Shown in pieces: positions 12,028 to 64,000 of a stretch of DNA of 64,000 nucleotides. Made by a program: the position numbers and the translations under genes. Under the pieces are notes generated by a model. It was not told the origin of the DNA, did not search any database, and worked only from the letters and a program-made list of their open reading frames with translations. The number at the start of each line of letters is the position of its first letter. Within the stretch, counting starts at the first letter, position 1. The stretch comes from Terriglobus albidus (GTDB lineage Bacteria > Acidobacteriota > Terriglobia > Terriglobales > Acidobacteriaceae): positions 2,046,001 to 2,110,000 of the forward strand of contig NZ_CP042806.1 in assembly GCF_008000815.1 (NCBI RefSeq), given 5' to 3'.

Positions 12028-12159
12028 CGATTTGTGGGGCAAAAAGGGTGCCGAAATGTGTCCTTTTGCACCTTCGAATGGAAGGCGAAACTCCGTGTGA
12101 GTCTTTGAAAGGATTTGGCGTCCCCGACGGGATTCGAACCCGTGTTATCGCCGTGAAAG
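12028..12159. repeat. Left attachment repeat of the genomic island, with tRNA-Glu 3' fragment
   Basis: About 132 bp that repeat, with only a few mismatches, the segment 32101-32233 beside the intact tRNA-Glu gene. Positions 12119-12159 are the 3' 41 nt of the tRNA (minus strand), ending exactly where homology is lost in the anticodon region. The other 90 bp match the DNA just outside the tRNA 3' end. This is the att site left by site-specific integration; the opposite copy lies 20.07 kb away. Confidence 0.88.
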
Positions 12160-13049: not shown

Positions 13050-13124
13050 CTGTATATAGGAGTCTTCGCTGATGAACTTTCCTTTCGCGGGATTGTAGTA
13101 CTTCGCGATCGGAAGGTATCCCTC
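13050..13124 (-). pseudogene. Remnant of an RHS C-terminal core
   Basis: Twenty-five codons read GYLPIAKYYNPAKGKFISED and then SYIQ, which matches the strongly conserved end of RHS cores (RYYNP-x-x-GRFISEDP) just before the variable toxin tip. It begins at the stop codon of the gene at 13123-13437, in another frame, and runs into a stop four codons later. Its wording differs from the two RHS copies at 16353 and 18342 (RYYTPQTGRFLSEDP type), so it came from a different RHS gene. Confidence 0.55.
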
Positions 13125-13437
13125 ATTTGAAGTCGAAGGTGTAGCACCGCGCGAAGGCTTTCACGATTTCCTCGGCGACAGCTGGATGCTTTTGCCTGAA
13201 TTGATCGGAAGCCAGCTTTTCCATCTCTTCAAGATTGACGGCAGTGAGCCGGGCATCAGAGACGTCGAAATCATCCTCTAAAGATTTGATTAGGGGAAGC
13301 AGCTTAGTGGCATCCTCGCCAAATTGATCTGCCAGCCGCTGGTCACTTCGGCTAGGCATCGCGCTTTGGCCCCATCCGGTCCAAACACGTACCGCCTCAA
13401 TGAGTTGTGCGGAGTTGAGGACGTTCATCTCGACCAT
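13123..13437 (-). CDS. Hypothetical protein, candidate immunity protein
   Basis: 104 residues, acidic, no membrane segment, no family recognised (VNLEEMEKLASDQFRQKHPAVAEEIVKAFARCYTFDFK). It sits in the row of immunity genes behind the RHS toxin and is followed immediately by an RHS-core remnant, the same order as lipoprotein gene then RHS tip at 17386. By that layout it may be the immunity protein of a lost toxin. The function is inference only. Confidence 0.5.
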   Translation of the reverse strand: MVEMNVLNSAQLIEAVRVWTGWGQSAMPSRSDQRLADQFGEDATKLLPLIKSLEDDFDVSDARLTAVNLEEMEKLASDQFRQKHPAVAEEIVKAFARCYTFDFK

Positions 13438-13695: not shown

Positions 13696-14007
13696 TCAGT
13701 TTGGGATGCCTTGAGAAAGTCTGTCCGCAACACTTTCGAGCCAGGCTTTCGCGGTGAGGCCGTCAGCACTCGGAAGATAGTAACAACGAAGCTCTGTGAA
13801 AAGTCTTCTCTCTAATTCTTTCCCGTCCGAGTACCGTGTAGAGTACATCCGTATCGCGTTAGAAACTGTGCGAAGCTCCTCGGGCGTTTTCCAGCGAGCA
13901 AAATCGTCTACGACCGCCTCCGTGGTGTCAGCCTCGCACAGCCAATCTTCGTGAAAATAAGCTCCGAAAAATTTTCGAAGCAATCGGAATTCATCGAGTT
14001 CACTCAT
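13696..14007 (-). CDS. CdiI-like immunity protein, copy 2
   Basis: 103 residues. The N-terminal AYFHEDWLCEADTTEAVVDDFA matches the CdiI_2 / contact-dependent-inhibition immunity type (YFHQDW, then an acidic VVDDF stretch). It aligns without gaps to the gene at 14608-14919 with 66 of 103 residues identical. No signal peptide, so it would act in the cytoplasm and bind an incoming nuclease-like toxin. The Met at 14007 aligns with copy 1. Similarity with copy 1 continues about 40 bp upstream of the start, where the matching toxin end would lie. No intact partner toxin is seen. Confidence 0.72.
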   Translation of the reverse strand: MSELDEFRLLRKFFGAYFHEDWLCEADTTEAVVDDFARWKTPEELRTVSNAIRMYSTRYSDGKELERRLFTELRCYYLPSADGLTAKAWLESVADRLSQGIPN

Positions 14008-14607: not shown

Positions 14608-14919
14608 TTAGTTTGGGATGTCTTGAGAGAAGCGATTGGCTATACCTTCCATCCAAGCCTTTGCAGAAAGCCCTGTGCCACTCGGCACGTAGTAACAACC
14701 GAGGTCCTTATCAAGTCCCTTCTCCAGATCGCGGTCATTCGAGAATCGGGCGGCGTAGCTTCGTATCGCATTGGCTACCAGGCGAAGCTCTTCTGGGGTT
14801 CCCCCTCGCGCGTAGTCATCTACAACGGCCTCGGTTGTATCAGCGTTGCAGCGCCAATCTTCATGAAAATACGCTGCAAAAAAATTACGAAGCAATGAGA
14901 GTTCTTCGTGTTCACTCAT
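14608..14919 (-). CDS. CdiI-like immunity protein, copy 1
   Basis: 103 residues from the Met at 14919, chosen because it aligns with copy 2; the frame is open to 14943. AYFHEDWRCNADTTEAVVDDYA carries the family signature, and the C-terminus GLSAKAWMEGIANRFSQDIPN matches copy 2 closely. It is a predicted cytoplasmic antidote to a CdiA/RHS tip. It is preceded by toxin and lipoprotein fragments (15023-15139), so its own toxin has been lost or displaced. Confidence 0.72.
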   Translation of the reverse strand: MSEHEELSLLRNFFAAYFHEDWRCNADTTEAVVDDYARGGTPEELRLVANAIRSYAARFSNDRDLEKGLDKDLGCYYVPSGTGLSAKAWMEGIANRFSQDIPN

Positions 14920-14950
14920 GGTTGAGGGAATCCCGTCGAACATATAGTAC

Positions 14951-15199: not shown

Positions 15200-15517
15200 T
15201 CATTTCATTCGTTCGATTACCGTCAGGCATCCGCCGTGCTTGTTGATCCACACAGCAAAGCTGCCACCCACTTGAGGGCGCCCTTCCTTGTCCTTGAGCA
15301 TGCCCTGCACTAGCCAAGCATTCTTGCCGATTCTCGCTCGCAACGGCAACTGAGCATTTACCCGCTCCTGACCGAACTGGGCAATGAGTACGGCTTCTGC
15401 GATGTGCTCGGCGGTTTTCTCGTCCGGTACGTAATCAGGATGAGGCAGCGTTGTCCGTGTGTTTTGTCCAACAGCGACCATCGTCGACAGCAACAAGAGA
15501 CCAAAACGTCTGTGCAT
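15200..15517 (-). CDS. NTF2-fold immunity protein (PF15631-like), exported
   Basis: 105 residues. A short signal peptide (MHRRFGLLLLSTMVAVGQ) precedes YVPDEKTAEHIAEAVLIAQFG, then WLVQGMLKDKEG and GGSFAVWINKHGGCLTVIERM. These match the NTF2-like immunity family (VPDE-x-TA-x-x-IAEA, W-x-V-x-G, GG-x-x-x-x-x-I-x-K-x-x-G). The signal peptide places it in the periplasm, implying a toxin that acts there. It follows remnants and has no intact adjacent toxin, so it is an orphan antidote kept against neighbours or a past tip. Confidence 0.7.
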   Translation of the reverse strand: MHRRFGLLLLSTMVAVGQNTRTTLPHPDYVPDEKTAEHIAEAVLIAQFGQERVNAQLPLRARIGKNAWLVQGMLKDKEGRPQVGGSFAVWINKHGGCLTVIERMK

Positions 15518-15951: not shown

Positions 15952-16275
15952 CTAGGACAAACCTTGACCAACCGGCTCGCGCTGTTTCTTAATACGTTCC
16001 TCGCGGATCGCCCTCCAGAACATCAGAATGAGCCCTAAGATAACTTCCGGAAAAAGCACACGATCAAAGATCTTATGATCTGTGCCTGGGGAGGCAAGGC
16101 GCTGCCACATGTGAGCTTGGAGAACGATGATACCTCCTAGTCCAGCTATCCAAAGAGCCGCGAGCAACAATTTGATCCAACTCCACCTGGGAAGTCTGTA
16201 TGCACACCAGATGACAAACCAAATAATTCCCCAAAAAAACGGATCCAGCAATGAAGCAACCAGTACAGGCATCAT
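15952..16275 (-). CDS. Membrane protein downstream of displaced RHS tip, candidate immunity
   Basis: 107 residues from the ATG at 16275 (a second ATG follows at 16272), with GGAGG eight bases upstream; the longer frame to 16326 lacks a site. Two or three transmembrane helices are seen: PFFWGIIWFVIWCAYRL, LLLAALWIAGLGGIIVLQA and LFPEVILGLILMFWRA. The tail is basic. It starts 77 bp after the end of the displaced RHS tip, whose C-terminus is Gly/Ala-rich and hydrophobic. A membrane immunity protein against a membrane-acting tip would fit; this is inference from position. Confidence 0.5.
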   Translation of the reverse strand: MMPVLVASLLDPFFWGIIWFVIWCAYRLPRWSWIKLLLAALWIAGLGGIIVLQAHMWQRLASPGTDHKIFDRVLFPEVILGLILMFWRAIREERIKKQREPVGQGLS

Positions 16276-16352: not shown

Positions 16353-17426
16353 CTATTGGCATCCGCAACTGCGACCTTTCATAGCATTTCCAACTCCTCC
16401 GCCAGTAGCCGTGGAAATCAAGCTGGCATTGCCAGCGAGGAGGCTCTCAGCAAATGTAAGGGCATTTCCAGTGAGACCGGCCTCGGCACCAAGCGCTTCA
16501 AGTCCTACTCCGAGTCCTCCGCCCAGTCCTGCTCCTACGCCAGCTCCTGCAACTTCTCCCCAGTTGTAGCATCGAGGACTCATGTTTTGCCCATGACGCC
16601 ACTTATGAAACGCCTGTCCAGCCAGATCAGCTCCGGCACTGATGGGAACACTTGATACGGCGCCTTCTGTTGGGTCGAGTAAGCCGAGTCCGAAACCCGC
16701 GGCCGCGCCGAGGACGGCTCCTCCGACCACGTCTTGCCAGTCCCAATCATCGCCGGTCATTGCGCCCAAACCGCCGAAGACGCCGCCATTAATTGCGCCG
16801 ACCACCGCCCCAAACGGCAATCTTCCTGAGGGATCGTTGAAGTCGATGGGATCAGCCCCAACATAGGCATACTTATTAATTCCGCCGGAGAATCCAGCAG
16901 GGTCTTCTGAGAGGAACCTGCCGACTGCCGGATTATAGTATCTGGCGCGGAAGTAATAGAGTCCGGCGGCATCCAACTCTCTACCTGTAAAAGCCAAAAT
17001 GTTTGTTGAAGGATTACCAGATTGGGTAGTGATTCCAAATGGATCGTAGGCGTACTGAGTTTGGATTGTCCCACTCGCGTCTGTCAGAGCGACCGTGCTT
17101 CCTAATGCATCAGTCAGAAAGTTGAAAGTTCCGCTCATATCAGTCCTGACGAAGTATTCGTCGATATAGCCAGTCAACAGATTAGCCGTAGGAGATCCGC
17201 CACTGATCTCTTGGACAGCGTTCGATCTGTCGTAGAGAAGGTTTGTGCTTCCCATTCCCGCAATGCTCTTTGTGACTCGTCGTCCAAACGCATCGTAACC
17301 GTATGTGGCTGCGCCTCCGGAATCGATGGAAGTGAGCTGATTACGTGCATTCCAGGAATATGTGTGTAACCCGTCGCTCGTCAGACTATAGATAGAGGCC
17401 GAAGCCGTACAACCACATTGTCGCAA
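16353..17426 (-). CDS. Displaced RHS core end with alternative C-terminal tip
   Basis: 357 codons. Residues 15-185 repeat the end of the RHS core of the gene at 18342: LTSDGLHTYSWNARNQLTSI, YDAFGRRVTKSIAG, FTGRELDAAGLYYFRARYYN and GRFLSEDPAGF. The tip begins after DPIDFNDPSGRLP and is unrelated to the main tip. It is about 160 residues, rich in Gly and Ala with hydrophobic stretches (VVGGAVLGAAAGFGLGLL, GVGAGLGGGLGVGLEALGAEAG), ending GRSCGCQ. Homology to the main gene starts abruptly one base after the lipoprotein stop at 17386. It lacks a signal and core, so it is probably silent until recombination through the shared DNA (about 500 bp) moves the tip onto the main RHS gene. Confidence 0.72.
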   Translation of the reverse strand: MRQCGCTASASIYSLTSDGLHTYSWNARNQLTSIDSGGAATYGYDAFGRRVTKSIAGMGSTNLLYDRSNAVQEISGGSPTANLLTGYIDEYFVRTDMSGTFNFLTDALGSTVALTDASGTIQTQYAYDPFGITTQSGNPSTNILAFTGRELDAAGLYYFRARYYNPAVGRFLSEDPAGFSGGINKYAYVGADPIDFNDPSGRLPFGAVVGAINGGVFGGLGAMTGDDWDWQDVVGGAVLGAAAGFGLGLLDPTEGAVSSVPISAGADLAGQAFHKWRHGQNMSPRCYNWGEVAGAGVGAGLGGGLGVGLEALGAEAGLTGNALTFAESLLAGNASLISTATGGGVGNAMKGRSCGCQ

Positions 17427-18330
17427 GCATCTGTTCAGAAGATGCCTCGCTGTCCAATGGAATATTTACCTCCCAAACTCCCTGGTTGCCTGGTCGCAAC
17501 GATGGTAGCTTTGCCGCTGAGTTTAGCTTCTTCGCCGTGCTGTCGTCCGATGCGAAGAGGCGAAGCACTCCAACTTTTTTCTCCGGATCGACAAAAAAAC
17601 TCAGCGCTTGGGCAGCGGGCGTCACATCTGTCATCCCTGCTGCATCCCTATATTTGATATCGACCTGTTGATAATGCCTATACCCCCACACGTCATGCTG
17701 ACTCAGACGCTCCCAATCGGAGACCTCGGGCAAAGTCGGAGCGCTGTGATTTGCCGAAGATAACCTCCCTGCCATCGACTGGAGGCTTCCCATGTCATTC
17801 GAGATCAGGAGGTAAGAATGAGCAATCTGAGTAGCGTAGAAGGCCTGCGGTTCATGCCGCCCCTCTGTCGGTTTTGCTAACCATTTCCACGTCGCCCCAC
17901 CTGCCGAAGAGATCGGCCCAGGCTTCTTGGCAAGTGTGCCAAGGTCAAGAACGCTGCGTTTTCGAAGGAGGACGACGTAACAGAACTGCGACTGCACTCC
18001 CCCGAGTCCCGCTGGCGGCCGGAAGTCTTTGGCCCCTACTAAGACAGCATCAGCGTCGTTAAATATTTCGACAGATGTCTGTTGTCCAAGGACGTTGAGA
18101 CCTCCAAGCAAGTCTCCATATGGAATACGGAGAGTCCCAGAAATGCCCCCTGGAAGCCCTTTATAATCACCTGAATCCCCCAGCAAGCTCGCCTTCACAT
18201 AAAACACGGAATCAAATTGACTAAGAAGAGCCGCCGCCGCCTGATTTGTGTTAGCCATGCTCCGGTGACATCCAGATAGAAGGATAACGAATAAGACCGG
18301 CACTCCATATGCCCGCATCGCAGTTTTCAT
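17386..18330 (-). CDS. Lipoprotein, predicted immunity protein of the main RHS toxin
   Basis: 314 residues from the ATG at 18330 (GAGGG nine bases upstream); upstream Mets at 18345 and 18363 overlap the RHS stop. MKTAMRAYGVPVLFVILLSGCHR is a lipoprotein signal with lipobox LLSGC. The rest is a soluble alpha/beta protein of no recognised family (TSVEIFNDADAVLVGAKDF, YATQIAHSYLLISNDMGSLQ). It directly follows the RHS toxin gene, where the matching immunity gene is expected. A lipid-anchored antidote would act in the periplasm, which hints that the main tip works there. The end (LYGFGLYL) may be truncated by the junction with the displaced RHS tip. Confidence 0.62.
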   Translation of the reverse strand: MKTAMRAYGVPVLFVILLSGCHRSMANTNQAAAALLSQFDSVFYVKASLLGDSGDYKGLPGGISGTLRIPYGDLLGGLNVLGQQTSVEIFNDADAVLVGAKDFRPPAGLGGVQSQFCYVVLLRKRSVLDLGTLAKKPGPISSAGGATWKWLAKPTEGRHEPQAFYATQIAHSYLLISNDMGSLQSMAGRLSSANHSAPTLPEVSDWERLSQHDVWGYRHYQQVDIKYRDAAGMTDVTPAAQALSFFVDPEKKVGVLRLFASDDSTAKKLNSAAKLPSLRPGNQGVWEVNIPLDSEASSEQMLATMWLYGFGLYL

Positions 18331-18341
18331 GATCGTTGCCC

Positions 18342-21300
18342 TCATCGTATTGGCGTGTTCCAACCGACAGATCCAGGAGGAGCCGTAGGGTTGAAGCCGC
18401 CAGCAGTACCGAGACTATGTGCAGCACTGTTGCTGTTGGGTCCATGCCAACTATAAGGAATTGTGTTTTGCGGCCAGTTGTTAGCCGCGTTTAACAAATT
18501 GTCAACCCCAGTGCAATTATTAGGTGAAGAGCCGCTATCCCAAGCTGTAGGAGCGCCAAGATTATCTGGACCAGCACCGGTTCCACCCGGTGTGACCGGA
18601 GTTACCCATTCGTTCAGCATCTGATTTGCACCAGTTTGGGGCCAAGGGCCACCTGAAATCAAATATTGTTGTCCACTGCTGCCTTGTACGTACCAGAACG
18701 AATGTGTAGCACCAATCATCTTTGCTCGCCAATCGTCGACGGGTCTATATTTGAGTTGAGCAAAGCATTTAGGTTTGCAACTCAGCCCCATTGGATCTTC
18801 GAATGACATTGGATTGTCGAGCACATACGAATAGAGATTCGTGCTGCCGCCGTTGAACCCAATCGGATCTTCGGAGAGGAACCTTCCTGTCTGCGGGGTA
18901 TAGTATCTGGCGCGGAAGTAGTAGAGTCCGGCTACATCGAATTCTCTACCTGTAAAAGCCAGGCTATTCGTTGAAGAAACGCCTGATTGCGTCGTGTTAC
19001 CGAATGGATCGTAGCTGTACTGGGTTTGAACAGTTCCACTCGCATCTGTCAGCGCTATAGTGCTCCCCAACACGTCCGTTAGAAAGTTGGATGTCCCGCT
19101 CGCATCCGTCCTAGTGAAATATTCGTCTATTCCGCCAGTCAGGAGATTTGCTGTCGGAGATCCGCCACTGATCTCCTGCACTGGATTCCATCTGTCGTAG
19201 AGGACGCTGGTACTCACTGCTCCAGATATGCTCTTCGTGGCTCGCCGCCCAAAGACATCGTATGCGAATGCGGCGGAACCTCCAGAATCGATCGATGTGA
19301 GTTGATTCCGCGCATTCCAGGAATACGTGTGCAGCCCATCGCTGGTCAGGTTCCCGTTCAGGTCGTACGCAAGAGTCATTGAAGCTGATTGTGTAAGCTG
19401 GTTGTTTACGTTGTAGAGGTTTCCGGTAATGGACTGAGGCAACATCGTCCTTGCGAAACTGCCAGCGACTGAGGTTCGACGACCCGCGCCATCGTAGCTA
19501 TACTTGAGGTCCCCGATCGCGAGGGATGCCGTGCTATATGTGATCCCGGTGAGTTGGGATGCGACGTCGTATGCATATTTTGCGACAATGCCGTTTGGGA
19601 GAGTCATACTTGTCCGGCGCCCCAACGAATCATAGCCAAACTGAACGTTCGATGTTCCTTGAGTGATCTGGGTTAAGCGATTGCCCGTGTCGTAAGTGTA
19701 GGAAATTTGAGGCTGTCCGCTGATGGTCATCGTTTGACGTTTCCCAATGGCATCAGAAGTATAAGCTATCGTGCCTTGCGGCGAAGTCACAGAGGTGACG
19801 TGGTCGAAATCATCGTAGGCTATCGTCGTCGTACCTGCACCCGAATCGACTGCCTGCGTTATTCGGTCGCCAGCGTCCCATGTATAGGTGATCGAACTCT
19901 CATACGTGGGACCGGCTGCCGTGCCAAAACCGATAAACGTCGGGCGGTTTAGAGCATCGTATTGATATGACGTAACCTTTCCTCGTCTATCCGTATACCG
20001 GATCAGGTTTCCGTTCGGGTCAAATGTCGACGAATCAGGATTGCCTAGTTGATCAGTTTTTGCCTGTAGGCGATCCATATTGTCAAAGACGAAAGATGTG
20101 GGAGTTGCAGTATTGCGTGCATCGGTTACGCTGGCGACATTTCCATTAGGATCGTATCCAAATGTTGTCGCGCTTCCCATGGGGTCAGTGAGCTGTGTGG
20201 CCTGATTGAGGGAGTCAAAATTTATCTGCTGAACTTGTCCGAGCGAGTTCGTTATGGATGTTGTTCGACCAGCCTCATCAACAAACAAAGATATAGACCT
20301 GTGGAGAGCGTCGGTAATCCCGCTTAGATCGCCGCCCGAATAAACCACCTGTGTTGTGTTTCCGGCCTCATCCGTAATCGAACCCAGTTGCCCAGCGGAA
20401 TTGTAAGAGCCCGTAACAGTCGTGCCGTCAGCATTTGTGATTTCGACGAGGTTGCCAATATTGTCATATTGCAATGCGATGGTCTGTCCCACTGCATTCG
20501 TCAGGGATGCCAGTTGGTTGAATCGCGGCTCGTATACGAGAGAGGTCGTCGTTGCGTTGGCAGTTCCGCTCAAGCGAGTGATACTTGTGGGATTGCCCGT
20601 CGCGTCATAGGTGTAGCTGGTGGTCCGGTTGAGTGCGTCGGTGACACTTAGTAAAAGCCCTGTCCCTGCCTGGCGGTTGTACGTGATCGTTTGTTGCTCA
20701 GGCTTTCCAAAAGCGCGAATGTCGGAACTCACGAAACCGTCTGCGTTGAAATAGACCTTGCGGACGTTTCCCCGTGGATCGGTGACATCAGTTTCAAAGC
20801 TTGTCAGCCCCGGGACAACGTAGGTGGTAATCCCCAAGGCGTTCAGCCCGTAATTGAAGAGGTATGTCGAACCGTCCACCATCACCTGCTTCCACACCAT
20901 GTTGTGAGAGTCATAGTAGTTCGTCAAATACGTTATGTTCCTCGCGTCTTTGATGGTGGTCATATTGCTATTGCCGTCATAGCCGAAGGTTGTTATGCCG
21001 CCATTGGCGTCCTTGACCGTACTAAGCCGCCCAGTCGTGTCATACGTGTAGTAGACCGTTCGGCCGGCGTTGTCGGACGCCTGGGTCACACGATTTGACG
21101 TGTCGTACGTATATTGAATCCAACGTCCGTTCGGCGAGGTCACTCGCGTCAGATTGTGATTCTGGTCGCGAGTCAATGTGAGGGTATTCCCGTAGCGATC
21201 TACGACACCGATAAGGGCCGCTTGAGAGAACGTAGTCGCCCCAAAGCTTTCCGGGAAAAACATCCGCGTCCCATCCTTCAGGGTCAACGTCCACCCACTC

Positions 21301-23657
21301 TCACTCCTGCTTGTATCCCAGACGATCGTGGAGCCGTAAAAGGGTGTTGATATGCTGAGGTTTTTAAAGACACCGTCCCCAAAGCCAATGCCATTCGAAA
21401 CGCGATCATAGCGAACGCGTCCGCCATTTGGCAGAATGAGATCCATATACGTATACGTGCTTCCATCTCCGGCGAGATAGATGTCGTAGTTGGACATTGT
21501 CCCGATGCCAAATGCATAGGAATTCGAGTCCATTTGGCGATACGTACGGGTTAACGTAGCCGGGATGACGTCCGGTAGAGCCAAGTCCGTCTTGCTATAC
21601 ACAAACAGGCCCGTTTGCAGGTCAATGGGTTCGCCGTCTTTGCCCTGGTCATTGGCGCCATTCGGCCCCGTCTTTGGTGGTGTGCTGGTGTTGCCGACCA
21701 TTGCACCTGTGAACTCATAGATGACGACACCGGGATTGGGAACAATCTGTTTGGCGTCGGCGGTGACGAATCCCTGACCGTACACATACCATCCTTTTGC
21801 GTCCGCATCGTAGTTCCAGAAATTGAAGCTTGTGCCAGACGGCAGTTGAGCGGGGTTCGGATAGAACAGGCGAGCGCCCGGCGCGTTGCTTCCTTCGTCA
21901 TATCCTTCCAGGTAAGCGCCTCCGGGTTGAATCGTGAAGTAGATCGGCACCTTGACGCCTTTGGGCAATGGAAAAGGGGGCTGATTGATCGGTATAGGCG
22001 TGATGCCAACCTTTGTGACCGGTTTGTCGTTTCTATCGTGGATCACTGCGCCGGCAGGCAAATGAAGCTCCAGACCTGGCAGGAGTGGCGTGGACACGAT
22101 CGTCTCGCGATCGGTAGGCGAAGGAATCGTTACTTGATTTGTCTTATCTAATGCAGTCATCCAGATCGTGTACGGAAGAACGTTTGTCTCTTTGGCTATG
22201 ATGTCAACGCCATCCTCATAGATTCCATAGGTGAGATTCCCATTCTTCGCGGTCGAACCATCAATCCACATCACTTGATGACCGCCGGGGATATTGGTCA
22301 GCAGGAACCGGCCAGTCCCATCGGTATGTGCAACAACATCGCCGATCTGCAATGTCGTGTTGCGTAGTGGCTCACCATCGAGTTGCAGGACTTGTCCTGA
22401 CACAGCGGTGACACCTTTCGGAGCCTTCAGCGGCGGCAGCTTGCGTGCTGGGGAGTTGAATGGGTCAGACGGTCCTGAGGCGGGAACGAGGTTGCCCGTT
22501 GTTGCATCCGTGCCATCGCCAAGCGTTTTGAAACGAACAGTACTGTATGCGAGCTGGCTTCCTGCGGGATCGGCAGCTCCTGAGATCGCGAGAGTGTAGT
22601 CGCTTCCGGCGCGGAGAATCTGCGAGGGAGTTACGAAAACAAGACGGCCAGCTTCCGCCGCAACTATTTGAACCGCAACGTCTCCGTCCTGCCCCTGAAG
22701 CGTCACGGTCTTCTGAGTGAGGCTGGTTACGGCCAGTGGACGGGAGAATCGCAGCGCAATGATCGTGGAAAGAGGGACGTGTTGCTCGCCGTCCTGAGGG
22801 AGAGAGCGGGCAATGGATGGCATTGCTGCGTCATTGTTTGCGGGCACAACGGGAAGAATCTGGACGGTCTGTGTCGCCGGATAGAAGATTTCGGAAGAAG
22901 TCAGGTTGTTACCGTTGGAATCCACACCTCCCTTGAAAAAAACCGTCCCATCCGCTTGAAGCGACGCAATATGAGCCGCTCTGGATAGAGAGAGTTTGGC
23001 ATTAGCGGTCTCGCCTATGGAGCTCCGGTAGTCCCAGAACTCGAGTAGATTTGTGGCCAGTCCAGATTCAGAGACGCCACCTGCAATTAAGACTCGTCCG
23101 TCGGTGAGTAGCGTTGTTGTATGGAACGCTCGAGGCGCGAGACCTGACGTCCCAATGGGATGGAAGGTGAGGGTGGCCGGGTCAAAGATTTCAGCGTCCA
23201 CGAGTATCGTCCTGTCAGATCCTAAGCCGCCAAGAATGAGCACGGTTCCATTTGGCAGGACCGTCTCAGTGTGGCCGTACCTCGCTTTCAAGAGACCGGT
23301 GGGAAGCTGCGTGACTCCGCCGGTAATAGGATCTTCGATGAACGCACTACTAACTGCATTTTCTCCTTCCGTTCCGCCGGTCAATAGCAGGCGGCCATCA
23401 GGTAATAATGTCGAGCTCTGGCCAGAAGTCCTCTTCGCGGCATTCGGATGTGTCGTTTCTACTTCGCTAGTGCCAGATGCCTTGGCAGCTTGAAGGACAG
23501 TTGTTAAGAATGCATTTGCGGCGGGTCTTTTCGAGGCTGTGTCAGCTTCATGTCCGCCTACACCGGCCAGAGCGTGAGAACAGTCACAAGTTGTGAAAAA
23601 GGCGATTGCGACAGTGCAACGCACGAGTAACGCGATGAAGAATCTAGTGCTTTTCAT
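18342..23657 (-). CDS. Large secreted RHS/YD-repeat toxin protein
   Basis: 1771 residues from the Met at 23657 (GGAG upstream; signal peptide FIALLVRCTVAIAFFTTCDCSHALA follows); the frame is open to 23747. In order: kelch-like repeats (about 40-270; GRVLIAGGV), a Big_5-like domain (RFSRPLAVTSLTQKTVTL), a carboxypeptidase-regulatory-like domain (GEPLRNTTLQIGDVVAHTDG), a DUF6531-like entry (GEPIDLQTGLFVYSKTDLALP), about 850 residues of YD repeats, and the RHS-associated core end FRARYYTPQTGRFLSEDPIG. After DPMGL comes a variable tip of about 145 residues. By analogy the YD shell encloses the tip, which is released into neighbouring cells. No PAAR or VgrG domain is present, so export is probably by signal peptide rather than type VI secretion. 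Confidence 0.85.
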   Translation of the reverse strand: MKSTRFFIALLVRCTVAIAFFTTCDCSHALAGVGGHEADTASKRPAANAFLTTVLQAAKASGTSEVETTHPNAAKRTSGQSSTLLPDGRLLLTGGTEGENAVSSAFIEDPITGGVTQLPTGLLKARYGHTETVLPNGTVLILGGLGSDRTILVDAEIFDPATLTFHPIGTSGLAPRAFHTTTLLTDGRVLIAGGVSESGLATNLLEFWDYRSSIGETANAKLSLSRAAHIASLQADGTVFFKGGVDSNGNNLTSSEIFYPATQTVQILPVVPANNDAAMPSIARSLPQDGEQHVPLSTIIALRFSRPLAVTSLTQKTVTLQGQDGDVAVQIVAAEAGRLVFVTPSQILRAGSDYTLAISGAADPAGSQLAYSTVRFKTLGDGTDATTGNLVPASGPSDPFNSPARKLPPLKAPKGVTAVSGQVLQLDGEPLRNTTLQIGDVVAHTDGTGRFLLTNIPGGHQVMWIDGSTAKNGNLTYGIYEDGVDIIAKETNVLPYTIWMTALDKTNQVTIPSPTDRETIVSTPLLPGLELHLPAGAVIHDRNDKPVTKVGITPIPINQPPFPLPKGVKVPIYFTIQPGGAYLEGYDEGSNAPGARLFYPNPAQLPSGTSFNFWNYDADAKGWYVYGQGFVTADAKQIVPNPGVVIYEFTGAMVGNTSTPPKTGPNGANDQGKDGEPIDLQTGLFVYSKTDLALPDVIPATLTRTYRQMDSNSYAFGIGTMSNYDIYLAGDGSTYTYMDLILPNGGRVRYDRVSNGIGFGDGVFKNLSISTPFYGSTIVWDTSRSESGWTLTLKDGTRMFFPESFGATTFSQAALIGVVDRYGNTLTLTRDQNHNLTRVTSPNGRWIQYTYDTSNRVTQASDNAGRTVYYTYDTTGRLSTVKDANGGITTFGYDGNSNMTTIKDARNITYLTNYYDSHNMVWKQVMVDGSTYLFNYGLNALGITTYVVPGLTSFETDVTDPRGNVRKVYFNADGFVSSDIRAFGKPEQQTITYNRQAGTGLLLSVTDALNRTTSYTYDATGNPTSITRLSGTANATTTSLVYEPRFNQLASLTNAVGQTIALQYDNIGNLVEITNADGTTVTGSYNSAGQLGSITDEAGNTTQVVYSGGDLSGITDALHRSISLFVDEAGRTTSITNSLGQVQQINFDSLNQATQLTDPMGSATTFGYDPNGNVASVTDARNTATPTSFVFDNMDRLQAKTDQLGNPDSSTFDPNGNLIRYTDRRGKVTSYQYDALNRPTFIGFGTAAGPTYESSITYTWDAGDRITQAVDSGAGTTTIAYDDFDHVTSVTSPQGTIAYTSDAIGKRQTMTISGQPQISYTYDTGNRLTQITQGTSNVQFGYDSLGRRTSMTLPNGIVAKYAYDVASQLTGITYSTASLAIGDLKYSYDGAGRRTSVAGSFARTMLPQSITGNLYNVNNQLTQSASMTLAYDLNGNLTSDGLHTYSWNARNQLTSIDSGGSAAFAYDVFGRRATKSISGAVSTSVLYDRWNPVQEISGGSPTANLLTGGIDEYFTRTDASGTSNFLTDVLGSTIALTDASGTVQTQYSYDPFGNTTQSGVSSTNSLAFTGREFDVAGLYYFRARYYTPQTGRFLSEDPIGFNGGSTNLYSYVLDNPMSFEDPMGLSCKPKCFAQLKYRPVDDWRAKMIGATHSFWYVQGSSGQQYLISGGPWPQTGANQMLNEWVTPVTPGGTGAGPDNLGAPTAWDSGSSPNNCTGVDNLLNAANNWPQNTIPYSWHGPNSNSAAHSLGTAGGFNPTAPPGSVGWNTPIR

Positions 23658-23757
23658 ATTTGAGCCACTCCGGTGTGCAATCGAGCCTTTCATTTGCCTA
23701 TCCGATACTTGAGTTTGTCGTTGAATCGATTTCGCTGATGTAGGCACGGTCCACTCC

Positions 23758-26700
23758 TCACTGAATCAACGAGGCAGTTACCGTTACTCCGCCGGTGCCC
23801 AGTGCCGGGTCAATCAAGACCGAGTACGTTCCTGTAGTCGGCAAAGTCAGATTGCCTGTATTCGCGGAACTTGCGCAGGAAAAGCCACTGTTGAGGGTGC
23901 TGCCGTCTGGCTTGAGAACTGCATAGTTCCAGCAAGGGTAATAGCTCGCGTTCGTCATGGAGACGTTCACAACCTGGTTCGCACTTCCACTGAATGTAAG
24001 GTTGAAGACCTGGCCTGCGAGCGTACTACTTACCGACGCTGGAGTATTGAATGTCAGCGATTGGCTGATCTGCTGAGTCAGGATCGCGGTTAGTCCACCG
24101 ACACCGGCGCCGGGGTCGATCAATATCGAATATGTTCCCGAACTCGGCAGGGTCAAAACACCGGTTGTGGCTCCGCCTCCACAAACAAGGCTACTTTTCA
24201 GCGTACTGCTGTCCGGATTGAGAAGGGTGTAGTTCAAGCACGAGCCGTAAGTGTCGCTCGCCAATGCAAGGTCGATGATCTGGTTTGTACTTCCGCTAAA
24301 GGTTATGTTGAAGATCTGGCCCGCGAGTGTACTGCTTATTGGCAACGGTGTATTGAGCGTCAGCGACTGGTTGATCCTTTGAGTCAGGGTCATCGTTAGG
24401 CCGCCAACACCTGGGCCGGGATCGATCAATAACGAATAGGTTCCCGAACTCGGCAATGTCAAAGCACCAGTTGAAGCCCCACTTCCACAAACAAGGCTAC
24501 TTTTTAGCGCGCTACCGTCTGGATTGAGGAGGGTATAGTTCAAGCACGGGTTGTACGCGCTGCTGGTCAATGCAAGGTCAACAATCTGGTTTGCACTGCC
24601 ACTGAAGGCTATGTTGAAGAGCTGGCCCGCAAGCGTGCTGCTTATTGACAGCGGCGTGTTGAGCGCCAGCGACTGGTTGATTCTTTGGGTCAGGGTTGCT
24701 GTCACTGCCCCGACACTGGATCCGGGATCGATCAGTAACGAATATGTTCCCGAGCCAGGCAGGGTGAAGACACCGGTCGCAGCCCCGCTTCCACAGATGG
24801 GTCCATTTTTCAGCGTGCTGCCGTTCGGGTTGACAATGGTATAGCTGAAGCAGGTGCTGTATGTCTTGTCTGTCAGTGCCAGATCAAGGATTTGGCCGGC
24901 TACTCCGCTGAATACAAAGTTGGCTTTCTGGCCGGGATAACTTGTACTGATCAGTGTCGGGGCAGCAAACTGCAGAACTCCCGTAACGGTACTGAATCCG
25001 TTTAAGGTGATCGGCGCAGCGCCAGTCGTGCCACCGGGGTCTATTCCGACCGTGTATGTACCGCTGTAGGTGAGGGTTTGAGTTGGAAGGTATCCGCCTG
25101 AACCGCACCCAGTGGTGGCGAGCTGATTACCGAAGGGGTCGATTAGCAATAGGCTGCAATAACCGAAGCTACTGCTACCTACGTTGATTGAAACGTTCTG
25201 CCCCGCAACCCCATCGAACAGCATCAAACCAATTTTTCCCGCCGTGCCAATCGAAACAGTTTGAGTGCTGTTCGTTGTCATCCGCCCGGTGAATCCAATA
25301 TCTGTTGCGGCATGTGTTCCGAATGGAACATAAAAGTCCTGCGTACTTGTTGCCATCCCGGACTTGGTCCCGACGGAGATATGTCCTGAGGCTGTAGATC
25401 CAGGCAAGGACACTGTGAGTGAAGTGGCCGTTGCGGCACTGACGGAAGCGGCAGAAAGACTGATTTTTACTACATCATTGATCGGTGTCGGATCGAATCC
25501 CGTTCCGGTGATGGTGATCGAAGTGCCCGGAACCCCACTCGTTGGAGTAAAGCTTGTGATCGTCGGAGCGCCGGTGCCGCTCGTGACGGTGAAAGGCCCT
25601 GAACTTGTGGCAGACCCACCGGGCGCTGTAAGGCTCACAGTTCCAGTTGTCGCGCCGGTCGGAACGCTGACTATCAGTTGAGTGGCGCTTGCGGAGGTCA
25701 CCGTCGCCGACGTTCCATTGAACGCGACTGAATTCTGGCTTGGTGTTGCGCTGAAGCCGGTTCCCGTGATTGTCACTGCCGTTCCGACCGGGCCACTGCT
25801 TGGCGCCAATTGGATAATCGCTGTCTGTGATGATGACTGGCGGCCGATTGAAAGAAGATTTCCGACCGCATCATACTGATACGTGGCCGTATCGCTCTGA
25901 GAATCCGAAACGCTTATCAGTCGTCCGCTCGCATCGTATGCGTAGCTGATAACGGATTGTCCCTGGAGAGTGAAGTTGGCGGAAGTTGCGCCGGTACTGA
26001 CGCTCAATCCGGAAATGGTTGCACTCGTGTAACCGGGGCTCGCTGCGGTGGCCGTATATGTTCCGGCGCTGAGGCTCGCGATCGAGTAGTTTCCAGAGGA
26101 ATCGCTGGTCGCGGTTCCCATGACTTCTCCTCCCTGTGACATGCTTACGGTGGCGCCGCTGATTCCGGTGACTCCATCCGTTTTAGTGACGTGACCTGAA
26201 ACGGTTCCAGGTGTCGCCAGAGCGAAATTGGCTGTAGCCGCTGAATTCACCGTCACGGCGATGTTTGGAGTTCTGCTGGTGCCATAGCCAGTTGCCGAGG
26301 CGATTACGTCATATGTCCCCGCCGCCAGGTTGGCTATCGAATAGGTGCCGTCCGCTGCTGTAGTGGCATTGCCGGCCACTGTTCCAGCTTTTAGGACTTG
26401 TATATTGCAGCCGGAAATGGGACTCCCATCGGAAGTCTTGGTCACCGTTCCTGCCAAACTACCGCTGCCGATTGTGAAAGCCACACCATTACTCAACAAG
26501 CCGTTTGCTGCTACGACGACCTGGCCGCTGACGGTACCCGCTGGAACCGGAACAACGATCTTGGATACAGACCAGCTTGTTGGGCTTGCGGTCATGCCGC
26601 CGAACGTAACGTACCCAGAACTTTGTAGTGCGCCGAAATTCGATCCTAGGATTGTGACGCTTGTCCCGGCGACGCCAGAATTGGGCGTTAATGAAGCGAT

Positions 26701-29055
26701 CGTTGGGCCTGTAGTAAACACGATGCCATTACTGCTGGAGCCATTCACAACCACGGTAACGGGGCCGGTTGATGCGCTTGACGGCACTGGCGCGACGATC
26801 GATGTGTCACTCCAGGACGAGGGTGTAGCGACTATCCCGTTGAAGAGCATCCTGCTCCCACCCTGTTGCGCACCGAAGTTTGCCCCTGAGATGGTCACGG
26901 TTGTGCCCGTGCCGCCTGAGGTGGGCGAGAGCGAGGCTATGCTGGGCGCCACGGAGAAACTGAATGAATTACTGGCGATGCCACCGGCGGTCACAACGAC
27001 GGGACCGGTTACGGCGCCTGCGGGAACCGTTGCGACGATGGATGTGTTTACCCAGTTCCCAAGCGTGGCCTGCACGCCGTTGAACGTGACGGTTCCTTGT
27101 GTCGTGCCAAAGTTATAGCCCTGAATCCTGACAGCGGATCCCACCGCACCCGCAGTCGGCGCGACCCCGATAATCAGTGGCGTTACGGTGAAGGTCCCAC
27201 CGCTGACAACGACGCCGGATATGGTCACTGTGACAGGCCCCGTCGAAGCCCCAACCGGTACGGGTGCGACGATCGTGTTGCCGCTCCATGATGTTGGTGC
27301 GGCGGGTATGCCATTGAAGCTTATGCTGCTCGATCCTTGCGAGGCGCCGAACCCGCTGCCACTCACCGTGACGGACGTACCTACGGGCCCGCTCGAAGGC
27401 GAAATACCCGTAATTGCCGGGAGCACGGTGAAGGAGCTCCAGGTTGTACTCTGCCCGGCAACCGTTATAACAATTGGTCCCGTCGAGGCGTTTGCCGGTA
27501 CTGGTACGGTAATGCTCGAATCCGTCCAGTTCGAGGGAGTTCCCGCGACACCGTTGAAGGTGACAGTACTCGATCCCTGGGTCGATCCAAACTGCCCGCC
27601 AGTGATTGTCACTGATGTTGCAGCTGCACCCGATGAGGGGGATACGTTCGAGATGTATGGATATAGGACCTCAGGTATTGTGATCGCAGAGTCGTAGTTG
27701 AGATTCGGCGTTCCCTCAATGTAAAGCTGTATCTTCACGGATTTGGTGATGGTTCCGGCGGCCGCGTTCCAGACCCCTATCTGGGCATATAGCTTGTCGG
27801 TTTGATCGAGCGTCATAGCGCTCGGAATCGAACAGGTGAATGTATATTTCGTGAGCGTCGTCGTCAGATAAGTCGTGCCATTCTGATAACAAAGGCCCGT
27901 CAACGATCCCGAGCCATTGATGTAGCTGAGAGCCACATACGGCTCAAGTCCCGAGACCGAAGCCGTCTCATTCATCCAAAGATTGAAGGTGAGGCTTGTT
28001 GAGGCCGGAATATATCCAGGGACGACTGCTGCCGTCGTAAACGTATTGATGAACGTGTATCCGCCGCTACTCCCTTTGAGATCTACGCTCTGGAAGAAAG
28101 TGCTCGCGGTGTCGGGTCCCGCGGTGCTCAAGAGAAGCGTCCCAGACACTCCTCCCGTCTCTTGGTGAAGGTGGTAAGGCGCGGTCGAAAGAACGCCTAC
28201 GACGAAGTAAAAGTTGTTGCTTGGATTCCCCCCAACGGTGACAACGACGTTGCCAGTGGTTGCTCCAGACGGCACAGACGTCGCGATCGAGGTGGCCGAC
28301 CAACTTGTGACACTGGCGGATACTCCGTTGAAGGCAACTGTACTGCTCCCTTGACTACTTCCGAAATTAGCTCCGGTAATCGTTACGGAACTGCCTGTCG
28401 CCGCCACCCCTGGACTCACCGAAGTGATACGAGGCCAGGCAGTAAAAAGAGCTCCGTTGCTATTGACACCGCTGGTCTGAACGACAACGTTCCCGGTCAC
28501 CGCATCTGAAGGGACGATGGCAACGATCGATGTATTGCTCCAACTCGTAATGGAGGCATATTGACCGGATTGGTAAAAAATGACGTTTCCATTTCCCTGG
28601 GAGGCGCCGAAGCCGCTTCCCGTGATCGTTACGGACGATCCAGTCGGTCCGGAAGTCGGCGAAATGCTGCTAATCGTCGGCGTTGGGAGGAGCGTGAACG
28701 CAACGCTATTGCTCGTCCTACCGCTTACCGTAACAACGACATTTCCTGAACTCGCGCCCGATGGGACTATTCCGACAATGGAACTGGCGGTCCAACTGGA
28801 AATGCTCGTCACCGCCGTTCCGTTGATCTTTAAGGTGCTCGTTCCTTGGCTCGCGCCGAAGTTGCTGCCGCTGATATTTATCGTGGCTCCAACAGCCGCT
28901 GCATTCGGCGAAATGCTGCTGATATTTGGGTTAGCAGCGAGCGCAGCCGTGTCGAGTGAAATCACGAAAGCGAGAACCCAGAAGAACGGTAGCGAGCGCC
29001 TGGACCCACACGTACGGTGCAGTAGCCATGCCAGAATTGGCCTTATCGTTGTCAT
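23758..29055 (-). CDS. Giant secreted IPT/TIG-repeat protein, partner of the RHS toxin
   Basis: 1765 residues; start at 29055 with GGAGAG upstream. A long signal peptide ends near ALAANP. About ten IPT/TIG domains follow the pattern ISPSSGPVGTSVTISGSGFG, interrupted after the third by an all-beta domain of about 180 residues (AGPDTASTFFQSVDLKGSSG). Two carboxypeptidase-regulatory-like domains follow (SGCNIQVLKAGTVAGNATT), then a short YD stub (YAYDASGRLISVSDSQSDTA), two more IPT domains and five tandem units of about 100 residues resembling PPC domains (SGTYSLLIDPG). It ends 101 bp before the chosen RHS start and is surely co-transcribed. It is likely an extracellular or surface adhesin or carrier; the YD stub links it by descent to RHS proteins. 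Confidence 0.8.
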   Translation of the reverse strand: MTTIRPILAWLLHRTCGSRRSLPFFWVLAFVISLDTAALAANPNISSISPNAAAVGATINISGSNFGASQGTSTLKINGTAVTSISSWTASSIVGIVPSGASSGNVVVTVSGRTSNSVAFTLLPTPTISSISPTSGPTGSSVTITGSGFGASQGNGNVIFYQSGQYASITSWSNTSIVAIVPSDAVTGNVVVQTSGVNSNGALFTAWPRITSVSPGVAATGSSVTITGANFGSSQGSSTVAFNGVSASVTSWSATSIATSVPSGATTGNVVVTVGGNPSNNFYFVVGVLSTAPYHLHQETGGVSGTLLLSTAGPDTASTFFQSVDLKGSSGGYTFINTFTTAAVVPGYIPASTSLTFNLWMNETASVSGLEPYVALSYINGSGSLTGLCYQNGTTYLTTTLTKYTFTCSIPSAMTLDQTDKLYAQIGVWNAAAGTITKSVKIQLYIEGTPNLNYDSAITIPEVLYPYISNVSPSSGAAATSVTITGGQFGSTQGSSTVTFNGVAGTPSNWTDSSITVPVPANASTGPIVITVAGQSTTWSSFTVLPAITGISPSSGPVGTSVTVSGSGFGASQGSSSISFNGIPAAPTSWSGNTIVAPVPVGASTGPVTVTISGVVVSGGTFTVTPLIIGVAPTAGAVGSAVRIQGYNFGTTQGTVTFNGVQATLGNWVNTSIVATVPAGAVTGPVVVTAGGIASNSFSFSVAPSIASLSPTSGGTGTTVTISGANFGAQQGGSRMLFNGIVATPSSWSDTSIVAPVPSSASTGPVTVVVNGSSSNGIVFTTGPTIASLTPNSGVAGTSVTILGSNFGALQSSGYVTFGGMTASPTSWSVSKIVVPVPAGTVSGQVVVAANGLLSNGVAFTIGSGSLAGTVTKTSDGSPISGCNIQVLKAGTVAGNATTAADGTYSIANLAAGTYDVIASATGYGTSRTPNIAVTVNSAATANFALATPGTVSGHVTKTDGVTGISGATVSMSQGGEVMGTATSDSSGNYSIASLSAGTYTATAASPGYTSATISGLSVSTGATSANFTLQGQSVISYAYDASGRLISVSDSQSDTATYQYDAVGNLLSIGRQSSSQTAIIQLAPSSGPVGTAVTITGTGFSATPSQNSVAFNGTSATVTSASATQLIVSVPTGATTGTVSLTAPGGSATSSGPFTVTSGTGAPTITSFTPTSGVPGTSITITGTGFDPTPINDVVKISLSAASVSAATATSLTVSLPGSTASGHISVGTKSGMATSTQDFYVPFGTHAATDIGFTGRMTTNSTQTVSIGTAGKIGLMLFDGVAGQNVSINVGSSSFGYCSLLLIDPFGNQLATTGCGSGGYLPTQTLTYSGTYTVGIDPGGTTGAAPITLNGFSTVTGVLQFAAPTLISTSYPGQKANFVFSGVAGQILDLALTDKTYSTCFSYTIVNPNGSTLKNGPICGSGAATGVFTLPGSGTYSLLIDPGSSVGAVTATLTQRINQSLALNTPLSISSTLAGQLFNIAFSGSANQIVDLALTSSAYNPCLNYTLLNPDGSALKSSLVCGSGASTGALTLPSSGTYSLLIDPGPGVGGLTMTLTQRINQSLTLNTPLPISSTLAGQIFNITFSGSTNQIIDLALASDTYGSCLNYTLLNPDSSTLKSSLVCGGGATTGVLTLPSSGTYSILIDPGAGVGGLTAILTQQISQSLTFNTPASVSSTLAGQVFNLTFSGSANQVVNVSMTNASYYPCWNYAVLKPDGSTLNSGFSCASSANTGNLTLPTTGTYSVLIDPALGTGGVTVTASLIQ

Positions 29056-30663: not shown

Positions 30664-30927
30664 GCGTTGTCTTGTCGCCGGCCCTAGTCGGGACACGAGG
30701 CCCCGAAACGATACTTCGGAAAGTCGACCCGGACTGAGGCGGCGACCTAGCGGGCAGAGCGTCCCAGGTTTGACACGATCTACGACGCGCGATCTTGCGA
30801 TACCGGCACGACGACTGTCGGAATGGCTTTACCTGTAAAAAGAAGTGTCCTAAACGCGCGAAGGCAGCCTTGTCGGGACACGAATCGTGCAAAACTCCGT
30901 TAGCTGTATGAGACGGAGGTGACTTTT
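30664..30927. other. Region upstream of the integrase with a direct repeat
   Basis: 264 bp. GTCGGGACACGA occurs at 30687-30698 and again at 30872-30883. Such repeats near an integrase can be arm-type or excisionase sites, but this is only a suggestion. The integrase ribosome binding site GGAGGTG is at the right end. Confidence 0.35.
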
Positions 30928-32094
30928 ATGCAGCAGGGAAGTGTCATCCAGGCGAGCCGAAAGAATGGTCCGGACGTATGGTTGTTTCGTTGGTCCGAGA
31001 AGGATCTAGGCGGGCGGCGTGTGTATCGCAAGAGAGTTATAGGAACCATTTCGGACTACGTCGATGAAGAGGCTGTACGTCAGGCGTCAATCGGCATCCT
31101 GTCGGAAGTGAATGTCAGATCTAGTCAAGAACGGATCGGTTTTATAACAGTTGACCAACTTTGCGAGCACTTTGAGCAACGTGAAATTCGATCCGGCCTG
31201 AGCCTTTGGAGCATCTCGACTGAAAGAACCTATCGAGGCTACATTCGTCGGTGGATTCGACCGCGGTGGGGATCATTGTCCCTGGATGAGATCAAGGCTG
31301 TGGAAGTCGAAGCCTGGCTGCATCGCCTCAATCTTGCTCGTGCGTCCAGAGCCAAGATCCGAAATGTCTTCTCAGTTTTGTTTACACATGCCTGCCGATA
31401 CGAACTGTTTGACAGCAATCCCATACGGTTCGTCCGTCAGAGTGCTAAACGCCGCCGAGCTCCAGACGTGTTGACAGGCGCGGAAATCAAGGCGCTCGTT
31501 GAGGGGCTGGCTCTACGCGAGCGAACTCTCGTCCTACTTGCGGCGTCGACCGGCCTACGGCAGGGCGAACTCTTCGGACTGAAATGGTGCGATATTGACT
31601 TCGAACACAACGAGATCAATGTAATCCGATCTTTCGTGTGCGGTGCCGAAGGCCGATGTAAAACCGAGTCCTCACAAAAGCCGGTTCCTATGCACTCCCA
31701 GCTTGTCTCGTTGCTAATGACGTGGCGGGGGCAGTGCAACTTCCAATCGCCCACTGACTGGGTATTCGCCAGTAGACTGCACGGCGGGCGAAAGCCTTAT
31801 TGGGGAGCTTCAATCCTCCGCCATTTCATTCGTCCCGTCGCTAAAGCTGTGGGTATCGACAAACGGATCGGATGGCACACTTTCCGGCACACATACTGCA
31901 CCCTTCTCAGGAGCCTGGGAGTTGAATTCAAGGTGATGCAGGAGCTGATGAGACATTCGTCTCTGCGTTCCACGCTCGACGTGTATACCCAAGCCGTAGG
32001 TCCGGCAAAGCGGGCTGCGCAAGCTGCCGTGCTTTCACTCTTATTCCCGGTGGCCGGGACAGATCTGGACTCAGAGATCATTGGAACGGCCTAG
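30928..32094 (+). CDS. Tyrosine recombinase (integrase) of the genomic island
   Basis: 388 residues from the ATG at 30928, with GGAGGTG seven bases upstream; a GTG at 30919 overlaps that site. The N-terminal SAM-like core-binding domain spans about 70-160. The catalytic domain has ASTGLRQGELFGLKW (first Arg), WHTFRHTYCTLLRSLG (H-x-x-R), LMRHSSLRSTLDVYTQ (second His and Tyr nucleophile). All catalytic residues are present, so it may be active. It ends 6 bp before the repeat at 32101 and points at the tRNA-Glu gene, the standard position of an integrase next to its attachment site. Confidence 0.92.
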   Translation: MQQGSVIQASRKNGPDVWLFRWSEKDLGGRRVYRKRVIGTISDYVDEEAVRQASIGILSEVNVRSSQERIGFITVDQLCEHFEQREIRSGLSLWSISTERTYRGYIRRWIRPRWGSLSLDEIKAVEVEAWLHRLNLARASRAKIRNVFSVLFTHACRYELFDSNPIRFVRQSAKRRRAPDVLTGAEIKALVEGLALRERTLVLLAASTGLRQGELFGLKWCDIDFEHNEINVIRSFVCGAEGRCKTESSQKPVPMHSQLVSLLMTWRGQCNFQSPTDWVFASRLHGGRKPYWGASILRHFIRPVAKAVGIDKRIGWHTFRHTYCTLLRSLGVEFKVMQELMRHSSLRSTLDVYTQAVGPAKRAAQAAVLSLLFPVAGTDLDSEIIGTA

Positions 32095-32100
32095 AAGGTT

Positions 32101-32233
32101 CGATTTATGGGTGCAAAAAGGGTGCAAAAATGTGTCCTTTTGCACCTTCGAATGGAAGGCGAAACTCTGTGTAAGTCTTTGAAAGGATTTGGCGTCCCCG
32201 ACGGGATTCGAACCCGTGTTATCGCCGTGAAAG
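32101..32233. repeat. Right attachment repeat of the island
   Basis: Matches 12028-12159 nearly base for base and covers the 3' 41 nt of the tRNA-Glu gene plus about 90 bp beyond it. Together the two copies bound a 20.07-kb element. The small differences (for example TGCAAAAATG here, TGCCGAAATG on the left) show that the copies have diverged since integration or came from different elements. Confidence 0.88.
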
Positions 32234-32267
32234 GGCGGTGTCCTAGGCCGGGCTAGACGACGGGGAC
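32193..32267 (-). tRNA. tRNA-Glu (anticodon TTC)
   Basis: 75 nt on the minus strand. The acceptor stem is GTCCCCG paired with CGGGGAC, discriminator G, no encoded CCA. The D arm has TCTAGCCCGGCCTAGGA, the anticodon stem-loop CCGCC-CTTTCAC-GGCG carries TTC, and the T arm has the standard GGGTTCGAATCCC. It serves as the integration site; the island's att sequence restores the 3' half so the gene stays intact. Confidence 0.95.
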
Positions 32268-63465: not shown

Positions 63466-63870
63466 ATGAACCTGAAACAAATTGTGATGCGGGCGGCGAT
63501 TCTGGCTGCCTGTACTGTGGGTCCAGCCACGCTCAGCGCACATGCGCAGGGAATGGGCGGAGGTATGGGCCAGATGACTCCCGAGCAGCGCAGTGCCCGC
63601 CAGCTCGAGATGATGAAAACCCGGTTGAACCTGTCCGAGGACCAGACGAGCAAGGTCAAGGACTTTATGGCCGAACGCGATAAGAAGATGGCGGATTTGC
63701 GTTCGAGCGGCGGCGACATGGAGACCATGCGCCCGAAGATGATGGAGATCCAGAAGGACTACTCCGACAAGGTCAAAGGTATTCTGACGGACGATCAGAA
63801 AAAGACCTACGAAGAGATGCAGTCTCAGATGCGTGGCGGCGGTCGCCCCGGCCCACCGCCTCAGCAATAG
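63466..63870 (+). CDS. Periplasmic LTXXQ/Spy-like protein
   Basis: 134 residues from the ATG at 63466 (AAAGGGGTAACTTCC upstream; the longer frame to 63292 overlaps the LysR gene). A signal peptide ends near LSAHAQG. The helical core has QLEMMKTRLNLSEDQTSKVKDFM and VKGILTDDQKKTYEEMQSQM, repeats of the LTXXQ kind (LSEDQ, LTDDQ), with Met/Gly- and Pro-rich ends. It may be a periplasmic chaperone or metal-stress protein. Confidence 0.75.
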   Translation: MNLKQIVMRAAILAACTVGPATLSAHAQGMGGGMGQMTPEQRSARQLEMMKTRLNLSEDQTSKVKDFMAERDKKMADLRSSGGDMETMRPKMMEIQKDYSDKVKGILTDDQKKTYEEMQSQMRGGGRPGPPPQQ

Positions 63871-63980
63871 AGCATTTTCCTCGTGGGAGTAGTGTAGGGC
63901 TTCCCATCTATGGGCGTTTTCCGCGATGAAAGCGCCGCTGTATGCTCTTTCGGGATACCCAGCAACGGGAAAACGCTCTA
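63868..63980. repeat. 113-bp element with 13-bp inverted ends, MITE-like
   Basis: TAGAGCATTTTCC at 63868-63880 and GGAAAACGCTCTA at 63968-63980 are inverted repeats with one mismatch. The inside contains no gene; GCGTTTTCC and ATGCTCTTTC repeat motifs of the ends. The left end includes the stop codon of the LTXXQ gene. Confidence 0.45.
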
Positions 63981-64000
63981 AATCCTTTCTTGTTATCAAA

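Follow-up and report, generated by a model that had tools for sequence, protein, structure and literature searches.

An orphan RHS tip and candidate immunity gene behind a full-length RHS gene of Terriglobus albidus, a probable case of C-terminal displacement

An orphan RHS core and tip follow a complete RHS gene

The DNA analysed here, a stretch of 64,000 nucleotides from the soil acidobacterium Terriglobus albidus (NZ_CP042806.1, positions 2,046,001 to 2,110,000; hereafter the window), contains on its minus strand a main RHS gene encoding 1801 amino acids (18342-23747), recognized through Pfam and NCBIfam matches, whose product comprises a signal-peptide-like N-terminus, Kelch and Big_5 domains, DUF6531, YD repeats and the Rhs_assc_core. 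The protein ends in an attached tip of approximately 147 residues without a Pfam match (tip 1; minus strand, 18342-18785), and no orthologue of the main gene was found in the 18 other genomes of the genus. Tip 1 is followed by a lipoprotein gene with an LSGC lipobox (minus strand, 17386-18330), the start of which is most likely ATG 18330, a codon preceded by GAGGG. On the other side, directly upstream of the main gene, 23758-29055 encodes a protein of 1765 aa in which ten IPT/TIG domains and a single RHS repeat were recognized, and the 3′ end of this gene carries internal 300-bp repeats.

The original prediction placed a second RHS core of about 500 bp one base behind the lipoprotein stop, followed by a different tip and then a membrane protein, and this arrangement is what we observed. 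The lipoprotein stop TAG occupies 17388-17386 of the minus strand, a single T follows at 17385 and homology to the RHS core begins at 17384 (junction, 17384-17385), so that the one-base gap was correct to the nucleotide. The alignment proposed with the prediction was performed as a blastn comparison of the window with itself, in which 16882-17384 matched 18847-19349 over 504 columns at 77.2% identity (E = 1.4e-106, 384 bits, versus 26.5 bits for the best of 50 shuffles). The identity, put at roughly 80 percent in the prediction, was measured at 77%.

The orphan RHS core thus delimited (503 bp, minus strand, 16882-17384) matches Rhs_assc_core/TIGR03696 with an E-value of 4.5e-25, and its translation aligns with that of the main core over 188 residues at 77% identity. 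Mismatches between the two cores are distributed 19/21/73 over codon positions 1/2/3, with a dN/dS of approximately 0.1 (NG86, 0.12/1.29), indicating that both copies have a past as protein-coding RHS core. Within its own genome, the orphan finds its best match in the main RHS core at 304 bits, compared with 39 bits for the next RHS gene, which assigns the two cores to one lineage. The longest identical run shared by the two cores measures 21 bp, and none reaches 30 bp.

Behind the orphan core lies a glycine-rich tip of 158 aa (tip 2; minus strand, 16353-16829), a putative membrane-acting toxin that has no sequence match to tip 1. The next open reading frame encodes a small membrane protein (minus strand, 15952-16275), of 107 aa when read from ATG 16275, with three predicted hydrophobic segments; an alternative span extends to 16326, and ATG 16275, with GGGAGG upstream, is the better start. 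Pfam hints for this protein fell below any threshold and were set aside. The full-length RHS gene lies directly upstream of the orphan on the same strand, and the 357-aa frame of the orphan opens at TTG 17426, inside the lipoprotein gene. No ribosome-binding site was found at TTG 17426 or at the early in-frame starts, and neither a signal peptide nor N-terminal RHS domains were found in the orphan. In contrast, good ribosome-binding sites precede the membrane protein gene, the lipoprotein gene and the NTF2 immunity gene described below. Given the missing usable start, tip 2 is probably silent, whereas the membrane protein gene is probably still expressed and probably guards against neighbours bearing the old tip.

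Each tip keeps its neighbour in other genera

Each of the two tips has a candidate immunity gene directly downstream, a pairing conserved in other genera. For tip 1, genome G211 encodes a homologue of the tip (34% identity) followed by a homologue of the lipoprotein (39%). The pair recurs there behind an RHS backbone that shares only about 25% identity with that of the main gene in the window; the lipoprotein is accordingly a putative tip 1 immunity protein. Because this partner is a lipoprotein, tip 1 probably acts in the periplasm. The structure model of tip 1 (pLDDT 32) was too poor for use, a match in genome G029 was discarded since it sits in a TonB-receptor-like gene, and PDB matches to light-harvesting proteins were weak and below any threshold.

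For tip 2, searches of 250 genomes of the family and of 84,980 genomes both yielded one and the same relative. It is encoded in an Acidobacteriaceae MAG of another genus (G129, JASHNW010000102.1), shares 64% identity with tip 2, and is likewise an orphan. An RHS-core fragment precedes it, and behind it lies a membrane protein gene whose product is 34% identical to the membrane protein of the window, which marks the latter as the putative tip 2 immunity protein. No RHS gene was found within 10 kb upstream of this relative, and in neither genome set did we find tip 2 attached to a full-length RHS gene. Plasmid sequences yielded no match, and one match in viral contigs, covering 25 glycine-rich residues, was judged to be due to chance. 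Mismatches between tip 2 and its relative fall 38/41/95 by codon position, a pattern indicative of purifying selection on tip 2 between the two genera.

Comparison of tip 2 with PDB sequences gave no match, and no known domain was found in it; its structure model was all-helical, of low confidence (pLDDT 42) and too poor for fold comparison. In function, we nevertheless liken tip 2 to Tse5, the pore-forming Rhs toxin of Pseudomonas aeruginosa with a membrane-acting tip of 149 aa (PMC10684867): tip 2 is of similar size, predicted helical, glycine-rich and partnered by a membrane protein, albeit without detectable sequence similarity to any solved structure. By this analogy, tip 2 is probably a membrane-acting pore-former that would be neutralized by the membrane protein.

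Further immunity genes and a tRNA-Glu island surround the cassette

Beyond the membrane protein gene, four more genes follow on the minus strand. Three are orphan immunity genes with domain matches, namely one Imm-NTF2-2 gene (15200-15517; PF15631, E = 7e-10) and two CdiI_2 genes (14608-14943, PF18593, E = 9e-16; 13696-14007, PF18593, E = 2e-20), and the fourth, a small ORF at 13123-13437, is a probable orphan immunity gene according to its position in the array and the GAGGAGAG upstream of it. The CdiI_2 genes are diverged duplicates of each other, at 62-64% identity in protein and 70% in DNA, with no tip beside them. At most 19 bp from the stop of the small ORF lies KYYNPAKGKFISED (minus strand, 13062-13106), which tblastn aligned to RHS core at 73% over 15 aa (E = 0.004); as it has no NCBIfam match, we regard it as a probable decayed RHS-core remnant. 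The geometry of this remnant behind the small ORF is the same as that of the main junction. The four immunity genes and the remnant suggest earlier rounds of displacement.

A tyrosine recombinase gene (plus strand, 30919-32094; PF00589, E = 7e-27) abuts a 133-bp att repeat (32101-32233) that lies over the 3′ part of tRNA-Glu(TTC) (32190-32267), and a second att copy, 95% identical and in direct orientation, is found at the opposite end (12028-12159). The RHS locus is thus the cargo of a 20-kb island integrated at tRNA-Glu, which shows that islands integrated at a tRNA can carry RHS loci of this probable displacement type. The original prediction had missed both the island and the longer graveyard in which the cassette is a single step. 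Genome G248 also harbours this integrase (96%), again at tRNA-Glu. Outside the window, fragments of the tRNA-Glu end recur at distances of 2.3, 20 and 26 kb, and the sequence becomes collinear with genome G128 again at about 39 kb; together, these observations point to several elements piled up at tRNA-Glu. Separately, a 115-bp element at 63867-63984 has several intergenic copies in G128 at 83-84% identity and is probably a dispersed intergenic repeat.

Orphan-tip arrays are common in the genus and family

A scan of the genus for RHS-core fragments with the TIGR03696 profile showed that 16 of 19 short-frame RHS fragments lie downstream of a longer RHS frame on the same strand; the other three comprise two in G128 (contig C28) and one at a contig edge. 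Behind a longer RHS gene, such fragments stand seven in a row in G148, three in G031 and two in G180, and singly at two G128 loci and in G194. These loci (L090/L097 in G148:C15, L091 in G031, L092-L093 in G128, L094 in G180 and L095 in G194) hold one to seven orphan tips each behind full-length RHS genes, every tip with a small ORF next to it downstream. Within the arrays, an ORF starts between -43 and +22 bp from the stop of most tips, often in an ATGA overlap; the core fragment after it begins, in most cases, 5-200 bp past the stop of that ORF. The tips differ from one another; one is a Tox-GHH nuclease (E = 9e-20) and another is deaminase-like at a sub-threshold score.

The second orphan tip of G148 resembles the attached tip of a full-length RHS gene in G128:C22 (39%, E = 6e-30), and its neighbour, a 249-aa DUF4262 protein, resembles the 244-aa neighbour of that gene (49%, E = 2e-87). 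The same tip-immunity pair is thus attached in the species of G128 but an orphan in that of G148, which points to tip exchange between species. In the wider family, the core domain scored above cut-off in 145 of 200 genomes, and further runs of fragments were visible. Giant RHS open frames of 4,500 to 6,000 codons also occur in the family (L112 in G006:C5, G169:C12 and G134:C164). A special 55-bp leader on the orphans of other species was dropped as a separate element, as by our reading it resembles an in-frame, decayed YD/core segment, and it is not a genome repeat.

The orphan unit probably arose by C-terminal displacement

On this evidence, the tip 2 unit is best explained, with a probability of roughly 80%, as an orphan RHS tip and its immunity gene left by Rhs C-terminal displacement. 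In the published model, an incoming segment consisting of a core end, a tip and an immunity gene recombines into the RHS core (PMC2935791). Applied to the window, the ancestral RHS gene would have ended in the glycine-rich tip 2, with the membrane protein gene next to it. A donor segment in which the end of an RHS core led into tip 1, with the lipoprotein gene next, would then have entered inside the RHS core and become the new ending of the gene. The previous ending, with its part of the core, its tip and its immunity gene, would have been shunted downstream. The expected outcome is an old core that begins right behind the new immunity gene. Both a circular intermediate (PMC2935791) and the illegitimate-end model of Kirchberger et al. 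(PMC5361080) are compatible with the sequence.

Since the pairs recur, tip 2 with its neighbour in G129 and tip 1 with its neighbour in G211, the tips are decoupled from their backbones and coupled to the genes behind them, as would be expected for toxin and immunity. That the cassette is a displaced RHS tip with its own membrane protein gene, as originally proposed, is well supported by the recurrence of the tip 2 pair in another genus, by the orphan arrays of related genomes and by the pair that G148 holds as an orphan and G128 as an attached ending.

The locus is real, well explained and belongs to a known kind of RHS system. The arrays described by Jackson et al. in 2009 (PMC2935791) share its order, in which a full-length rhs gene is followed by same-strand core fragments of varying length, as well as unrelated tips, small ORFs, tips decoupled from cores and fragments without start signals. 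In contrast to these enterobacterial arrays, the acidobacterial RHS protein of the window carries a signal-peptide-like start and Kelch repeats, with no PAAR domain found. Moreover, the displaced cores in the literature hardly differ from the gene above them, with 91.6% amino-acid identity in Serratia and complete identity in E. coli (PMC2935791), whereas the orphan core in the window is only 77% identical, so that the event is old, or the donor diverged, or both.

The rhs-main/rhs-orphan locus of Salmonella Typhimurium LT2 (Koskiniemi et al. 2014, PMC3967940) is a close counterpart, with a main gene and an orphan tip that each have an immunity gene, an orphan without start or export signals, and a configuration in which recombination would fuse the two; such fusion was detected in evolved lineages, and the window differs from LT2 in its low core identity. 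The row of retained immunity genes behind the active pair (NTF2, two CdiI_2 and one unknown) is analogous to the T6SS arrays of Vibrio cholerae, in which immunity-gene arrays arise by sequential effector displacement (Kirchberger et al. 2017, PMC5361080); unlike those arrays, the window has kept one complete tip as well. Rhs C-terminal displacement, a process worked out in Enterobacteriaceae, thus also shapes the RHS loci of Acidobacteriaceae. Keeping displaced tips as a weapon reserve is a known bacterial strategy that is common across this family, and the arrays, with up to seven spare tips, offer a ready supply of unknown toxins paired with immunity proteins.

That homologous recombination could move the orphan onto the main RHS gene, deleting tip 1 and its immunity gene, was the second part of the original prediction; that the orphan is kept for such a live use, as reported for LT2, we consider possible but rather doubtful. 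The geometry is as proposed: wherever in the 503-bp core the exchange took place, the reading frame would be kept and 1,965 bp would be lost, exactly tip 1 and its lipoprotein gene. Evolved Salmonella in which the orphan was reported to have fused to the main gene provide a precedent (PMC3967940). Efficient switching today is a different matter: the cores are only 77% identical, without an identical run longer than 21 bp, no recombinant was seen, and no second strain with the locus was found among the 18 other genomes of the genus. In G148, where two orphans share identical runs of 92-120 bp with the main core, switching is plausible; at the window it is doubtful and should be rare today.

The same divergence of the cores would also fit an arrival of the unit ready-made, in which a stand-alone core fragment with tip and immunity gene inserted after the lipoprotein gene without ever having formed the end of this RHS gene. 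The island is mobile, and the G129 relative stands alone, without an RHS gene in the 10 kb upstream. We nevertheless hold this origin to be improbable, given that the main RHS core is by far the best match of the orphan in its own genome (304 versus 39 bits), as expected for a displaced end, and that related arrays sit downstream of RHS genes on the same strand.

It is less probable still that the orphan works as it stands, being translated from an internal start into a small toxin that acts inside the cell and has the membrane protein as its antitoxin. Such a role has been claimed for Salmonella RHS elements (PMC7043789), and the purifying selection on tip 2 between two genera (38/41/95) would fit it, although that selection may stem from the period when the tip was attached, and the lack of a ribosome-binding site at TTG 17426 or the early in-frame starts speaks against translation. 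A duplication of the RHS 3′ end within the genome followed by divergence, which could account for the direct repeat of the core, is refuted as far as the tips are concerned, since these are unrelated and each has its own conserved neighbour in other genomes; tip 2 therefore did not diverge from a copy of tip 1.

A conserved word recurs at orphan starts

We surveyed the FTGKERD box at loci L090-L095 and L107-L123. In RHS cores with this box, the word TTCACCGGCAAAGAA, which encodes FTGKE, hardly varies: among 21 copies inside a longer core, the codons were TTC in 20, ACC in 21, GGC in 21, AAA in 20 and GAA in 20, against background frequencies of 0.32 for ACC, 0.36 for GGC, 0.41 for AAA and 0.49 for GAA. 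The residues that follow (R, D, E and G) vary almost as little, yet many codons are used for them. Approximately 12 orphan tips, from G031, G148, G180, G194 and three more distant genomes, begin at TTCACCGGCAAAGAA, and among the matches listed in a phylum-wide pattern search, ACCGGCAAAGAA was present in 52 of 68 FTGKERD boxes.

The copies of the box in the window read TTTACAGGTAGAGA, and the breakpoint of the window falls at another place, immediately after the YDxNGN box and close to the point at which orphans of several other genomes begin. With a variant box and an orphan start behind YDxNGN, the window would represent a second class of breakpoint. It is conceivable, though we think it unlikely, that tip exchange in Acidobacteriota is anchored at TTCACCGGCAAAGAA as a DNA-level recombination site rather than proceeding by plain homology; the word is a lead, as the sequences are related and alignments readily start at conserved boxes. 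Its conservation at the codon level offers a concrete test of a preferred DNA site in tip exchange.
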